A stretch of 41,413 nucleotides of DNA, taken from assembly GCA_003151795.1 (NCBI GenBank), contig PLYL01000009.1, forward strand, positions 1 through 41,413, written 5' to 3'. The notes under the pieces are model-generated. The model saw only the letters and a list, made by a program, of their open reading frames with translations, did no database searches and was not told the origin of the DNA. This stretch comes from Candidatus Yanofskyibacteriota bacterium. GTDB lineage: Bacteria; Patescibacteriota; Minisyncoccia; 2-02-FULL-40-12; GWA2-44-9. Numbering within the stretch: the stretch's first letter is position 1; each line of letters begins with the position of its first letter. A program made the position numbers and the translations under genes. Below, piece after piece: positions 630-22,738 of the stretch.

Positions 630-2087
630 TTACTTAGCGGAAATAAGGGGGCCGTAGGGGGTATCGGAGACGGTATAGCCTTCGGTTTCGATGCGGGACC
701 GCAGAGTGTCGGCTTTGGACCAGTCTTGGTCAGTGCGATGCTGTTCGCGCTGTTCGGCCAATTCGAGAATTTCGGGCGGGATGGGTTGTTCTTTGGGTTC
801 GGGGACGATGCCCAGAACTCGTTCGACGGTCGTAGCGAAAAAAGTTTTGACGGTTTCCGCTTGACCCGCCGAGAGGGCATTTTTGGCGAGCAGGGGATTG
901 AGGGCGCGGATGAGTTCAAAGACCGAAGCAATCGCCGAGGGGGCGTTAAAATCGTCGTCCATGCCGGCGGTAAATTTGTCGGCTCGGGATTTTAATATTT
1001 CATCGAGAGCCGGGTTTTCCTCGCCGGACGCTTTGGTGAGACGAGCGAGAAAGTCGGCGATGCGGTCTATGGCGACGGAGGCTTGATTAACCAGAGTATC
1101 ATCGAAGGCTAGCGGGGAGCGGTAATGAGCGGAGAGGAAATATAGACGGAGGGTTTCGGCGGGGTGGTGCGGAAGTCGAGCCATCACATCGCGAAGCGTG
1201 CTGAAATTATTCAAAGACTTGGACATCTTGTCAGCCTTGTTAATGAGGAAGCCGGTATGCATCCAGTATTTTACGAACGGCACTTTGCCTGACAATGCTT
1301 GTTGCTGGGCAATTTCGGCCTCGTGGTGGGGGAACATTAAATCCTGCCCGCCGCCATGGATGTCGTATTGCTGGCCCAGATATTTTTCGGAAATGGCCGT
1401 GTCTTCAATGTGCCAGCCCGGCCGGCCGAGGCCCCATGGCGATTCGTTGGTGGGTTCGTAGGCATAATTCTGGGCTTTCCAAAGTACAAAGTCGCGGGGA
1501 TTGAGCTTGTTGGCTTCCATCTCGACACGGGTGCTTTCTTTTAATTCGTCCAACTTTTGACCCGAAAGCGTGCCATATTGGTTAGGGAAGTCTTTCTCGT
1601 AGCGGGCCAGTTCAAAATAGACATCGTTATTACCTTCGGCCGAGACGGCATCAGCCCCCGTCGCCTTGATGGCCGGCGCGGTGTAGGCGTAGCCTTTTTC
1701 AATCAGGGTTTTGATTTGGGCGATAATTTCGGCGATATGTTCGGAGGCGGACGCGTAGTTATTGACGGCGTTAACTTTCAAAGCGCCCATATCGTCAATG
1801 AAAGCCGTTTTGTATTCTAAAGCAATTTCTTCCGGTTTTTTGCCTTCGGTATGCGCCCGAGTGATAATCTTGTCGTCGATATCGGTGATATTCTGGACGT
1901 AGTTGAGTTCAAAGCCCTTGAATTCCAGATATCGGCCGACGACATCAAAGAAAACAAATGTCCGCGCGTTGCCGACGTGGATGAAATCATAAACTGTCGG
2001 TCCGCAGACAAACATCCGGACTTGATTTTGATCGATGGGCTGGAATTCTTCCTTGGCTCCGGTCAGAGTGTTATGGATTTTAAGCAT
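630..2087 (-). CDS. cysS: cysteinyl-tRNA synthetase
   Basis: FVCGPTVYDFIHVGNARTFVFFD, GGGQDLMFPHHEAEIAQ, KMSKSLNN motifs. Confidence 0.97.
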   Translation of the reverse strand: MLKIHNTLTGAKEEFQPIDQNQVRMFVCGPTVYDFIHVGNARTFVFFDVVGRYLEFKGFELNYVQNITDIDDKIITRAHTEGKKPEEIALEYKTAFIDDMGALKVNAVNNYASASEHIAEIIAQIKTLIEKGYAYTAPAIKATGADAVSAEGNNDVYFELARYEKDFPNQYGTLSGQKLDELKESTRVEMEANKLNPRDFVLWKAQNYAYEPTNESPWGLGRPGWHIEDTAISEKYLGQQYDIHGGGQDLMFPHHEAEIAQQQALSGKVPFVKYWMHTGFLINKADKMSKSLNNFSTLRDVMARLPHHPAETLRLYFLSAHYRSPLAFDDTLVNQASVAIDRIADFLARLTKASGEENPALDEILKSRADKFTAGMDDDFNAPSAIASVFELIRALNPLLAKNALSAGQAETVKTFFATTVERVLGIVPEPKEQPIPPEILELAEQREQHRTDQDWSKADTLRSRIETEGYTVSDTPYGPLISAK

Positions 2088-2095
2088 ATATTTAT

Positions 2096-3373
2096 TTAGA
2101 TAAAGAATAACGCGATGACGCTGGCCGTCATGACAATCAGTAGTATATAGGCAAGAATGTTGGAAGACAATCGGCTGGTGTACTGGCCCATGATTTTCGG
2201 ATTGTTGGCCATGTGAATGACGAGAGCGATTAGGACCGGTGAGATGACGCCGAATATAACGGCGGTGTAATAAAGAATATTAACGGGGTCAAACCCAAGC
2301 GCCGGAATCGCCAGTCCAAGCACGGTTGCGACGACAATGACAATGTAAAACTGCTTCGCTCGGCCAAAATGGTTTTCAAATCCGTCGTGCCAGCCGAACG
2401 TTTCTGCCAGGGCATAGGCGGCTGAACCGGCCAAGACGGGAATGGCGAGCGTACCAGCGGCAAGGATGCCGATAAGGAAGAGCAAGTTGGCATAAGGTCC
2501 CGCGAGAGGCTTCAAGAGCTGGGCGATTTCACCGACTGTGCCGACGTTGTAGAACCCGTGGGCGTTGAGCGTGGTCGATGCCAAGATAATAACAAAAAAA
2601 GTAATGATGTTTGAAAATATCATGCCATAGTAGACGTCTTTATACATGGCACCGACTTCATTGCGGATGCGATGCTTGGGAAGCTTATTTGGCTTTATGT
2701 CGGGCATCATCGTGCCGGGGGCCAGATTTTGTCTGACGCGCTCTTCCTCAACTTCTTCCGACGCTTGCCAGAAAAATAGATACGGCGAAATGGTCGTGCC
2801 GAAGATCGCGACAACGACACCGATATATGCTTTGTCCCAGCGCCATGGCGGGATTACCGCTCGCACTAATATTTCTCGCCACGGCTGTGTCACGAGGAGC
2901 GCCGCGATGATATAGGCAAACAATACAATCGCAATCCATTTTAAATAGTGGGCGATTTGACGGTAGGAGAGGAATATCAAGAGCAAAATAATGGTGCCTG
3001 AAATAATCGCGCACAAGAGCAGTGCGGGAATCGGGATGAGGAGCTGAACCGATGCCGCCATTGCGGAGATATCGGCCCCGATATTAATGACATTGGCGAG
3101 AAAGAGAATAATCGTGACAAAGCCAAGAATCCACTTTGGGTAATGGCGTTTCATATTGCCCGCCAGGCCGCGGCCCGAAATCATGCCGATGCGCCCGCAC
3201 ATCCGCTGGATGACAATCATGAAAGGTAGCGTGACAATCACGGTCCACAATGTCGCCAAACCAAACCTAGCTCCGGCAATCGAATACGTGGCAATTCCCG
3301 ACGGGTCGTCATCCGCCGCGCCCGTAATTAGCCCCGGCCCCAGAGATTTCCAAAAAGATTTGAGACGGTCCAT
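2096..3373 (-). CDS. NRAMP-family divalent metal transporter
   Basis: GPGLITGAADDDPSGIATYS N-terminal motif and multiple TM segments. Confidence 0.9.
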   Translation of the reverse strand: MDRLKSFWKSLGPGLITGAADDDPSGIATYSIAGARFGLATLWTVIVTLPFMIVIQRMCGRIGMISGRGLAGNMKRHYPKWILGFVTIILFLANVINIGADISAMAASVQLLIPIPALLLCAIISGTIILLLIFLSYRQIAHYLKWIAIVLFAYIIAALLVTQPWREILVRAVIPPWRWDKAYIGVVVAIFGTTISPYLFFWQASEEVEEERVRQNLAPGTMMPDIKPNKLPKHRIRNEVGAMYKDVYYGMIFSNIITFFVIILASTTLNAHGFYNVGTVGEIAQLLKPLAGPYANLLFLIGILAAGTLAIPVLAGSAAYALAETFGWHDGFENHFGRAKQFYIVIVVATVLGLAIPALGFDPVNILYYTAVIFGVISPVLIALVIHMANNPKIMGQYTSRLSSNILAYILLIVMTASVIALFFI

Positions 3374-3437
3374 TTATATTTTAATTATATCATCTCGTTT
3401 GGTTGCATGCCACAAGGCCAATCTTCATTGTGGATAA

Positions 3438-3464
3438 TTAGCACTCTTGACACTAGACTGCTAA
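3438..3464 (+). promoter_or_regulatory. CIRCE operator (HrcA binding site)
   Basis: TTAGCACTC-N9-GACTGCTAA, one mismatch to the consensus TTAGCACTC-N9-GAGTGCTAA; the N9 spacer contains the TTGACA -35. Confidence 0.93.
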
Positions 3465-3475
3465 TTTAATATCAT
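3447..3475 (+). promoter_or_regulatory. hrcA promoter (TTGACA-17-TATCAT)
   Basis: -35 at 3447-3452 lies inside CIRCE, -10 at 3470-3475, ATG at 3482. Confidence 0.8.
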
Positions 3476-3481
3476 GGCAGG

Positions 3482-4234
3482 ATGGAAGTGACCAAGAGAC
3501 AAAATTCATTGCTGGACTTCATTATTAGTGAATATGTGAAGACGGCCAAGCCGATTCCTTCGGCTTTGGTTTATAAGAAATCAAAACTCAAAGTCAGCCC
3601 TGCCACTATCCGTAACGAGATGAATTATTTGGAGGAAAACGGCTATCTGGAACAGCGTCACACTTCCGGCGGGCGAGTGCCGACCGACAAAGCTTATCGG
3701 TATTATGTGAATCAGTTATTGAGCCATCCCAGCCAGCTAGAAGTAAATTCAGAAGATAAAAAAGACATCACCAAAGCCCTTTCAAAAGCGGGGACCGACA
3801 GCCGAGCCATCAATAAAGCTATCGCCCGAGTGCTTTCCGAACAATCTGGCAGTCTCGTCATCACCGGCATCGCCGAAGACGCGGAATTTTTCAAACAAGG
3901 GTTAGTGAGTCTGTTCCGCCATCCGGAATTCCAAGAAGTAGATAGTTTGTTTCAGCTCACGAGTTTCTTTGAAGGCTTTGATCTAATGTTTCAGCTGATT
4001 GAGCGTGAGTTTTTGAGAATTCTCGGCGCGCCGGCGGGGATATCAATCCAAATTCTCATTGGCCATGAGAATCCATTCCGGCAAATCAAAGGCGAGACCA
4101 TCATGTGCACGAAATATCTTCTGCCGGGCGATGTTATCGGCTCACTCACACTGATTGGACCGAAACGGATGGATTATGAAAAGAATATCGCTTTAATAAA
4201 ATACACAACGGACCAGCTTAACAAAATGAATTAG
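3482..4234 (+). CDS. hrcA: heat-inducible transcription repressor HrcA (short, 250 aa)
   Basis: winged-helix N-terminus KVSPATIRNEMNYLEENGYLEQRHTSGGRVPTDKAYRYYV; CIRCE upstream; grpE-dnaK downstream. Confidence 0.95.
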   Translation: MEVTKRQNSLLDFIISEYVKTAKPIPSALVYKKSKLKVSPATIRNEMNYLEENGYLEQRHTSGGRVPTDKAYRYYVNQLLSHPSQLEVNSEDKKDITKALSKAGTDSRAINKAIARVLSEQSGSLVITGIAEDAEFFKQGLVSLFRHPEFQEVDSLFQLTSFFEGFDLMFQLIEREFLRILGAPAGISIQILIGHENPFRQIKGETIMCTKYLLPGDVIGSLTLIGPKRMDYEKNIALIKYTTDQLNKMN

Positions 4235-4299
4235 GAATTATGAATCAGGAATCAGGCCAACCCTAATTCCTAATTCGTGCTTCGTGATTCGAATATATT

Positions 4300-4782
4300 A
4301 TGGACACACAAGATGAGAATAAGCCGATTGATGATACAAATGTCACGGCAATAGAAACCAGTGATAAGACAGAAGAGTACTTAAACAATTGGAAAAGAGA
4401 GCGAGCCGACTTTCTGAATTATAAGAAAGACGAAGCTCGAAGAATCGAAGAGTTCGCCCGATTCGCGAATGAAGATGTCGTTCTGGAATCGATGGAAATT
4501 CTTGATGACCTCGAACTAGCCCACCAAAATTTTGCAAAGCAAAACTTAGGCGGGCAAGCCGGGGAGTTAAATAAGGGCTTAGATCAAGTTATCAAGAAGT
4601 TCAAGAAATTGTTTAAGAAGTACGGCGTCGAAGAGATTGCGGTGAAGGGTGAAAAGTTTAATCCCGAACAGCATGAAGTCGTAGAAATGGAGCCCGGCGG
4701 CGAAAAGATGCTGCCAGTCCGCGCCGGATACACCATGCACGGCAAAGTCGTCCGCCCAGCAAGAGTCAAAATAACAAAGTAA
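4300..4782 (+). CDS. grpE: nucleotide exchange factor GrpE
   Basis: position before dnaK; C-terminal HEVVEMEPGG...HGKVVRPARVKITK. Confidence 0.93.
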   Translation: MDTQDENKPIDDTNVTAIETSDKTEEYLNNWKRERADFLNYKKDEARRIEEFARFANEDVVLESMEILDDLELAHQNFAKQNLGGQAGELNKGLDQVIKKFKKLFKKYGVEEIAVKGEKFNPEQHEVVEMEPGGEKMLPVRAGYTMHGKVVRPARVKITK

Positions 4783-21089: not shown

Positions 21090-21118
21090 TTGACAGTAGT
21101 TTGGAGTAGGTGTATACT
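21090..21118 (+). promoter_or_regulatory. promoter of the T-box transcript (TTGACA-17-TATACT)
   Basis: near-perfect sigma70 boxes with a 17-bp spacer. Confidence 0.85.
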
Positions 21119-21154
21119 GGTCATATTAACAACTGAATACTAATAGAAACGCAT

Positions 21155-21446
21155 TAATACGGAAGAAGAGTACGCAATGAAGAGGGTACGAGCGAGCTTG
21201 GGATAGTGAAAGCCAAGCCCTGAATCATTGCCGAACACACTTCCGGAGCGGTTGGTGAGAAAGCCTCGCAAGGGGATATAAGCCAAACGGTGGGTCACTC
21301 CATCGTGAACAATCAAATCAAGTGCTCGATTTCCGAAAGGCGTCGAGAATAAAAGATGGGACCGCGGGATGTCTAAATTTTCAAGACTCTCGTTCTTTTT
21401 TCGCTTCGGCATAGTGCCGAGGTTAGCAAAGAACGGGAGTTTTTTC
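21155..21446 (+). promoter_or_regulatory. T-box riboswitch, predicted His-specific (specifier CAC)
   Basis: Stem I CGGAAG/CTTCCG and GCAATG/CATTGC enclose the specifier loop AAGAGTAC / CGAA-CAC-A; distal AGCGAGC..GGGATAGTG; T-box motif TGGGACCGCGG at 21357; antiterminator CGAGA/TCTCG versus terminator ACTCTCGTTCTTT/AAAGAACGGGAGT-TTTTT. Confidence 0.93.
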
Positions 21447-21477
21447 GTTTTCAGGACTTCCCGTAAAGGAGACCGAA

Positions 21478-21561
21478 ATGAATGCTTTCGGTGTCAGTTT
21501 AGGCGGTATGGGCCCGCATAACCCACGGGAGGCATGGCCTCCCCCTATATGGTCCTCGTAG
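21478..21561 (+). CDS. small ORF, 27 aa, between T-box and tRNA
   Basis: MNAFGVSLGGMGPHNPREAWPPPIWSS; SD AAAGGAG with 6-nt spacing; TAG overlaps the tRNA at positions 8-10. Confidence 0.45.
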   Translation: MNAFGVSLGGMGPHNPREAWPPPIWSS

Positions 21562-21623
21562 CTCAATAGAAGAGCGGTGCCCTGTGAAGGCATTGGTTGC
21601 GGGTGCAAGTCCCGTCGAGGACC
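21551..21623 (+). tRNA. tRNA-His (anticodon GTG), atypical elbow
   Basis: G-1:C73; acceptor GTCCTCG/CGAGGAC; D-stem GCTC/GAGC; anticodon arm GTGCC-CTGTGAA-GGCAT; T-arm GCGGG-TGCAAGT-CCCGT; CCA not fully encoded. Confidence 0.88.
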
Positions 21624-21765
21624 CAATTATAAACAGTTTTATAATTGGCGGGGCTTGCATGCCGGAACGATGCAACATTCAGGAGAATGTTGCCGTGAGG
21701 CGGGGTCGCGAAATCAGCGAGCGACGGCGAGCTGATATTTGTGACCAAGTCCCGTCGAGGACCCA
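21606..21765 (+). repeat. 20-bp direct repeat of the tRNA 3' end flanking a 120-bp insert (att-like)
   Basis: CAAGTCCCGTCGAGGACCCA at 21606-21625 and 21746-21765. Confidence 0.9.
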
Positions 21766-22715
21766 TGAGTTATAAAAAGAAAAAATTAAAGAAGAGTGCG
21801 CTTGGCCAGCTCAAGTTCCAGCTTGGGCAGATTGGGCGTGCTCTGCTTTACAGAGTGCAGGCTCTTTTACAAAAAATCAGATTACCTCAGCGAGAAGTTG
21901 AGGAGGAGGTGACTGTGTTGAATTTGCCCAAGGTCTTAGAAATTTTGGGCAGATATGACAGACTGCCTAATAATCCCGATACCTCGAGTATCGAACCGGC
22001 GATCTTAGCCCAAATTGAAAAAGAAGGAAAGTTGCGCTTGTGTGTTTTTGTCTGTCCGAAGTTTAACCCAAAGGCTCTTGTTTCGTCAGAGCCAGAGAAG
22101 TACATGCCGGTCGAAGTTGGTACATTCGGTTTATTCGAAGACCGAATTACTAAAATCATCTTGCTTAAAAACGAGTTGATGCAAGCAGGCTTAGCGACTG
22201 AGATCAATTTGGTGCTGGGAGATAACGACGCTGAGGAGTATATCTTTCCATTCATCGAAGGTTTTACTCTTGATCCCCAGTGCTACCGGCAAAGACAGTC
22301 CACGTATCGTGGCGCGTTTGAAGAGCGATGTAAATCTTTATTCGGAGTCAAGGGTTGCGTCGTATGGTCCTTGGCAGAGTTCGGTGTAGTTATGGAAAAT
22401 GACTTGCCAAATATTTCTCAAGAGAGCCTCAAGAAAGAGCTCGGTTTCTTCAGTTGGCTATTTTCAGGAGCGGGTCCGTATCGTGGAGAATTTAGTTTCT
22501 CTGAAACGGTCATTGCTGAAATGGTTATGCGGAAGTATCGACTCTATGGCGCGCAGGGAAAGTTCTTGGAAATGCTCGGTGGGATATTGTTACAGACCGA
22601 GGGTCCAGGTGTTTGGCTGGAAAGAACTCAAATGCTTCGATGTACTGGTGCGCGAGCTATTCCCGCTATCTATCCCTGGATTAGGAAAGGAGAAACAAAT
22701 CAGGTGGCTCAGTAA
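21765..22715 (+). CDS. uncharacterised protein in a His T-box operon
   Basis: long ORF downstream of T-box and tRNA-His, same strand, ends in a terminator; ATG at 21765 preferred over GTG at 21741. Confidence 0.8.
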   Translation: MSYKKKKLKKSALGQLKFQLGQIGRALLYRVQALLQKIRLPQREVEEEVTVLNLPKVLEILGRYDRLPNNPDTSSIEPAILAQIEKEGKLRLCVFVCPKFNPKALVSSEPEKYMPVEVGTFGLFEDRITKIILLKNELMQAGLATEINLVLGDNDAEEYIFPFIEGFTLDPQCYRQRQSTYRGAFEERCKSLFGVKGCVVWSLAEFGVVMENDLPNISQESLKKELGFFSWLFSGAGPYRGEFSFSETVIAEMVMRKYRLYGAQGKFLEMLGGILLQTEGPGVWLERTQMLRCTGARAIPAIYPWIRKGETNQVAQ

Positions 22716-22738
22716 AACCGAGCCGCCCTTTCTTTTTA
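22702..22738 (+). terminator. Rho-independent terminator overlapping the ORF end
   Basis: GGCTCaGtaaaaCcGAGCC then CCTTTCTTTTT. Confidence 0.75.

Follow-up and report, generated by a model that had tools for sequence, protein, structure and literature searches.

We interpret positions 21,090 to 22,738 of the window (the whole stretch of DNA analysed, 41,413 nt) as a histidine-starvation operon encoding a micropeptide, an enzyme linked to His-tRNA and, in a subset of loci, its own tRNA-His, a reading that the evidence favours by a modest margin. The source genome measures 766 kb and is 99.6% complete; its relatives are Patescibacteria, and sister loci were found in Candidatus Yanofskybacteria and Candidatus Paceibacterota. 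The operon comprises the following features:

21090..21118, + strand: sigma-70-type promoter TTGACA-17-TATACT (11/12 consensus matches; similar ones in L002-L004)
21145..21400, + strand: T-box leader (RF00230, 67.4 bits, E 2.3e-14, model 1-219)
21236..21238, + strand: specifier CAC, a His codon pairing with anticodon GUG (read from the sequence; GAACAC invariant in six leaders)
21357..21363, + strand: T-box bulge UGGGACC, with variable base G21360 complementary to C73
21387..21445, + strand: intrinsic terminator, stem 21387-21398/21428-21439 plus T6 (read from the sequence)
21478..21561, + strand: micro-ORF MNAFGVSLGGMGPHNPREAWPPPIWSS with SD AAAGGAG, between T-box/terminator and tRNA
21527..21543, + strand: hairpin GGGAGGC/GCCTCCC after the micro-ORF motif (read from the sequence)
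21552..21624, + strand: extra tRNA-His (GTG) (ARAGORN; RF00005, 62.6 bits)
21625..21765, + strand: structured insert after the tRNA, source genome only, with the tRNA 3' end repeated at 21746-21765 (MFE -64.2, z -6.4)
21765..21914, + strand: N-terminal basic extension MSYKKKKL..., common only to tRNA-bearing loci (alignments)
21915..22715, + strand: core enzyme domain with its own GTG start (SD 21900-21909; AF2 pLDDT 91.7; Foldseek TyrRS/PvcA/CDPS)
22703..22738, + strand: probable operon terminator GGTGGCTC...GAGCCGCC with T-rich tail (sequence inspection)

The leader covers the whole RF00230 model, but its score (E value computed over 801 nt) lies below the Rfam gathering score of 93, so that a default Rfam scan reports only the tRNA. 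One homologous leader exceeds this cutoff (L052, 94.0 bits), and the others score 81.3, 74.7, 73.5 and 59.3. The antiterminator, read from the sequence, pairs 21353-21356/21364-21369 with 21388-21397; the latter segment is shared with the terminator and pairs both ways, making the two structures mutually exclusive. The terminator stem is kept in the six aligned leaders, and their alignment contains 18 pairs with compensatory change. The specifier aligns as CAC in all six and as no other codon, while the variable base of the bulge is G in four and A (UGGA) in L002 and L004, where it does not pair with C73. A scan of the interval between terminator and tRNA detected no consensus promoter. The operon terminator is missing from the terminator scan, which has a loop limit of 8 nt. 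The original prediction had claimed the promoter, a complete T-box with competing antiterminator and terminator, a CAC specifier, a variable base G matching C73 and a tRNA-His downstream on the same strand, and would have been refuted by a missing RF00230 hit, a specifier on another codon, or transcript data with an independent tRNA promoter and no read-through. All of these claims held, the match to C73 in four of six leaders only, the window's among them; RF00230 does hit, though under its gathering score, and the sequence shows no consensus promoter of that kind.

An RF00005 scan found 46 tRNAs genome-wide, exactly two of which scanned as tRNA-His. The window gene has an intact cloverleaf with an encoded G-1 at 21551 and C73 at 21623, and is an additional copy beside the canonical, housekeeping-like tRNA-His at C12:51749-51820, which has a different body. 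G-1:C73 is present in all seven tRNA-His loci. Among the seven cassette tRNAs, of which six are distinct, every one of the 132 pair cells is canonical and 6 pairs have changed on both sides, a combination that no shuffle matched; compensatory changes affect three of the four stems, and the D- and T-loops co-vary in L065.

In the Trp, Tyr, Leu(tag) and Pro(ggg) tRNAs, as in the window tRNA-His, the T-loop reads UGCAA (G55) and the D-loop has AG in place of GG; the canonical D/T-loop pair in the tRNA-His of L065 hints at an alternative A18:G55 elbow. A non-proteinogenic tRNA-His, suggested by the D-loop without GG and the UGCAA T-loop, was dropped because four other tRNAs of the genome have the same T-loop and L065 has a normal pair. 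RAGATH-21 of Rfam, itself possibly a tRNA-like RNA, gave a full-length but weak alignment to 21551-21623 (19.7 bits, E 0.86) that takes in the AAUAGAA and UGCAA loops. Identity with RAGATH-21 or with a group II intron was rejected, the matches being far under cutoff.

Downstream of the tRNA, a 20-nt duplicate (21606-21625 = 21746-21765) flanks the structured insert of about 140 nt, which folds much more strongly than shuffled sequences. No copy was found in the other loci and no match in the phage database. Its 5' strand is able to pair with either copy of CAAGUCCCGUC; the insert could possibly compete with tRNA folding, or be the relic of a small mobile element. In L002, L004, L052 and L066 the ATG of the ORF lies directly against the 3' end of the tRNA; maturing the tRNA and translating the N-terminal extension may therefore be mutually exclusive, or the mRNA may be leaderless.

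Synteny in relatives is clear. The order T-box, tRNA-His, ORF recurs in six loci of five genomes (the window, L002, L003, L004, L052 and L065), of which L002 and L004 are two copies in one genome and L065 comes from another family. These cassettes sit at different genomic positions with order and orientation kept. Of 45 genomes in the order, 4 carry the 41-nt core of the tRNA, and precisely those 4 carry the protein. In a seventh locus, L066, which retains the tRNA, a YerC/HisR (TrpR-type) gene upstream takes the place of the T-box, for which no match was obtained. L067, L068 and L072 have the protein without the tRNA, which is hence not essential to it. In the class, 28 further T-box loci were sampled, and none had a tRNA gene downstream on the same strand in the fetched stretch. 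Two other pattern matches, L059 and L063, were rejected as cassettes, being unrelated tRNA-His genes. Within the family, T-boxes were found in the six cassettes and in L072. The genome searches covered a limited sample (1512 genome slots in all), and the distribution figures are partial; T-box counts from the sparse search are "at least" values, since under stricter filters it missed the source genome's own T-box.

Histidine-related genes accompany the core family more widely. HisR, a histidine regulator (PMC9413887), was identified by TIGR02531 in seven loci (L066/L081, L067, L068, L085, L094, L095 and L102) with scores of 51.8-95.6 bits (cutoff 42.2), and hisS (TIGR00442) adjoins or lies near the core gene in four (L086, L087, L082 and L084). 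Most loci have the core family beside hisS, HisR or a His T-box, a linkage shown at the sequence level. In L067, the HisR gene and the micropeptide are each preceded by a stretch of about 29 nt, and the two stretches are nearly identical, as would be expected of an operator. We infer that T-box and HisR control would both turn the operon on when histidine is short. Histidine ammonia-lyase (hutH) occurs in one locus across the family neighbourhoods: in L084 (G517, 1404-4365) it is divergent from hisS, a few genes from the core-family gene.

The micro-ORF contains the motif LGGMGPH at 21499-21519, and micro-ORFs with GG[MAT]GPH, preceded by L or F, occur with a ribosome-binding site in ten loci, the motif lying within the ORF or at its end. 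Codons for L, G, G, G and H show silent third-position changes (for example TTA GGC GGT ATG GGC CCG CAT vs CTG GGC GGC ATG GGA CCG CAC), indicating that selection acts on the peptide. Codon counts give a chance expectation of about 5e-7 per codon position for this pattern, so its recurrence beside the core family is not due to chance. Other loci carry hairpins of differing sequence near the same place, at or after the motif in every locus. In L072 the order is core gene, micro-ORF, hisS. L084 and the tandem-core loci yielded no GGxGPH micro-ORF, and GGAGPH, GGMGPH and GGTGPH had no occurrence in the open-licence literature searched. The role of the peptide, as substrate, partner or leader, is a matter of inference.

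For the protein, the 324-aa ORF of the original prediction is real, but homologues place its start at ATG 21765 (316 aa) and not at GTG 21741. In all 12 loci listed, the core (about 260 aa) comes with a separate start codon and SD. The window core shares 48% and 45% identity with L069 and L070 and 13-18% with the subfamily A cores, and a 17-sequence alignment assigns it to a different subfamily from the sister-cassette cores; it therefore looks as if the enzyme module was exchanged while T-box, peptide, tRNA and extension stayed in place. Homology between the two subfamilies spans their full length (hhalign probability 83%, E 8.8e-6). Pfam, NCBIfam and PADLOC gave no convincing family match for the protein, and Pfam none in 17 members; as far as these libraries go, it founds an undescribed family. 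AlphaFold (AF2) with 17 sequences reached pLDDT 91.7 and pTM 0.88, superseding a model from only five sequences (pLDDT 38). The nearest PDB folds by Foldseek are TyrRS (E 5.8e-5), PvcA (1.2e-4) and CDPS (1.2e-3), with TM-scores of 0.35-0.51; for CDPS 5ocd (E 1.2e-3, TM 0.41-0.51) the similarity is distant, and the best viral structural match is a cyclodileucine synthase. From the sequence-based model, the protein appears to have a Rossmann fold like those of class-Ic aaRSs, CDPSs and PvcA; the TM-scores are low and the chemistry is unproven. HIGH and KMSKS signatures were not seen in the 17-sequence alignment.

Several identities were rejected for this protein. By sequence it is not a CDPS: PF16715 does not match it, and comparison with a CDPS alignment built from plasmid-record sequences showed no profile similarity (hhalign probability 0.3%). 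A virus origin was rejected for lack of relatives in IMG/VR, and a defence system for lack of a meaningful PADLOC match. Tandem pairs of family members occur in L094, L095, L085, L087 and L101 without a recognised GGxGPH micro-ORF, as if the second protein had taken the peptide's place; L085, L094 and L095 have HisR upstream.

The operon resembles several known systems in part. The his-operon T-boxes of Lactococcus lactis and Corynebacterium glutamicum (RF00230) have the same Stem I with AG and GNUG elements, a His specifier, the same UGGN bulge and a strand shared by antiterminator and terminator; unlike them, the cassette leaders mostly fall below the Rfam gathering score, and their apparent targets are a tRNA gene, a micropeptide and enzymes of a family whose function is unknown. 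The Firmicutes HisR (YerC/YecD, TrpR family) regulons (PMC9413887) are likewise histidine-responsive, a likeness drawn from gene adjacency, whereas the apparent targets of patescibacterial HisR are the micropeptide and core enzyme rather than his biosynthesis or transport genes. ParcuCDPS, which makes cyclo(His-Pro) (PMC7613923), has a class-Ic-aaRS-like Rossmann fold that the model of the core family resembles distantly, and shares a similar size, the His-tRNA link and a nucleophile-type residue directly after the first strand (Cys47, invariant in the core family); by contrast, the core family has no sequence similarity to CDPSs, Cys in place of Ser, no recognised YxxxE motif and a linked micropeptide. 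The isocyanide synthases PvcA and IsnA (about 300 aa; Foldseek E 1.2e-4 and 9.5e-4) differ in that the core family lacks a Pfam match and has the histidine and tRNA linkage. Staphylococcus aureus has a non-proteinogenic tRNA-Gly, an extra isoacceptor that serves a tRNA-using enzyme of peptidoglycan synthesis. The tRNA-His would similarly be an extra isoacceptor beside the translational one, for an enzyme whose use of tRNA is inferred; unlike the tRNA-Gly, it is encoded inside a T-box-controlled operon. The T-boxes described in the literature searched regulate genes for synthetases, biosynthesis or transport. None with its own cognate tRNA gene on the transcript turned up in these open-licence papers, and an earlier report cannot be excluded.

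In the explanation we prefer, uncharged tRNA-His would cause antitermination at the T-box, and a single read-through transcript would yield the micropeptide (...LGGMGPH...), the extra tRNA-His and the protein of predicted Rossmann-like fold with its lysine-rich N-terminal helix. From its GUG anticodon and G-1:C73, the tRNA is expected to be a HisRS substrate; charged as His-tRNA, or uncharged, it would then be passed to the co-expressed protein, whose basic helix may grip it. Use of His-tRNA by the enzyme, the peptide as substrate or partner, and dependence of tRNA transcription on read-through are all inferred, without transcript or biochemical data. A His-tRNA-using relative is plausible because a Parcubacterial CDPS using His-tRNA and Pro-tRNA exists (PMC7613923, PMC12945691). 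Against this explanation stand the paradox of a His-tRNA-consuming enzyme induced by His starvation, to which a starvation-triggered bioactive product may be one answer; the low TM-scores and missing sequence similarity to CDPSs; and the loci without the tRNA. The UGGA bulges also count against it, softened by the report that a discriminator match is not expected in His T-boxes (PMC7778990). A bolder version, no more than possible as a whole, has the aaRS-fold enzyme take histidine from the dedicated tRNA-His under T-box control and either attach it to the ribosomally made GGxGPH micropeptide or cyclise it together with that peptide; the outcome would be a new tRNA-dependent pathway, whose product epibiotic bacteria make under starvation.

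The original prediction had guessed at a dedicated tRNA with a tRNA-using enzyme, which is strengthened by the TyrRS/CDPS/PvcA-like fold and the linkage to hisS, HisR and T-box; its proposal that uncharged tRNA-His switches on tRNA and ORF is supported by the sequence, read-through and charging being inferred. It had missed the micro-ORF, the 20-nt duplicate with its structured insert and the strong internal start at 21915, and is amended in three respects: the micropeptide belongs to the operon, only a subset of loci has the tRNA, and the ORF starts at 21765.

The alternative that comes closest concerns the peptide only and is compatible with our explanation for the rest. The GGxGPH micro-ORF might be a leader or arrest peptide, a second His-tRNA sensor at which ribosomes stall at the Pro-His codons, without action in trans. 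His is without exception the final conserved codon, every locus has a hairpin at or beyond the motif, and the micro-ORF of L072 precedes hisS; yet there is a single conserved His codon, the upstream GG-x-G is conserved at the protein level, the inspected hairpins lack a U-run and so are unlike attenuators, and histidine is already sensed by T-box or HisR. We lean slightly against it. Less support exists for a pure supply loop. In that reading, a tRNA-His pool that is damaged, sequestered or uncharged would lead the T-box to provide a reserve of tRNA-His, and the protein, instead of being a biosynthetic enzyme, would repair or protect tRNA-His or HisRS. Induction by uncharged tRNA, hisS adjacency, the unlike body of the extra tRNA and the basic helix would fit, but the core family exists without the tRNA (L067, L068 and L072), PADLOC gave no defence family and the conserved peptide has no obvious place, making this reading unlikely.

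Chance adjacency, with tRNA and ORF beside the T-box through genome compaction and not regulated by it, can be all but dismissed. Patescibacterial genomes are dense, but six loci at separate genomic positions preserve the order and orientation, the promoter is conserved, no promoter-like site separates terminator and tRNA, and the 0/28 count in the class shows that such an arrangement is no common accident. We regard as similarly remote a microcin-C-like Trojan-horse peptide directed against HisRS, with hisS as self-protection. Its appeal lies in the tiny peptide with His near its end and the hisS neighbours in some loci; however, the peptide ends in His only in L052, and a non-exhaustive annotation of the neighbouring genes revealed neither an exporter nor an MccB-like enzyme. 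The MccB fold also differs from that of the core family.

If our preferred explanation is true, the operon contains a tRNA feedback loop that ties tRNA supply to one enzyme. That enzyme's family is undescribed in the libraries searched, with a confidently predicted fold related to tRNA-using enzymes, and the conserved micropeptide that accompanies it is small enough to escape gene finders. Should the regulation be as it appears, several ultrasmall bacteria would possess a system for histidine starvation that has not been reported before. Little is understood about Patescibacteria, and a starvation response specific to histidine would give a concrete way into what they obtain from their hosts or inflict on them.
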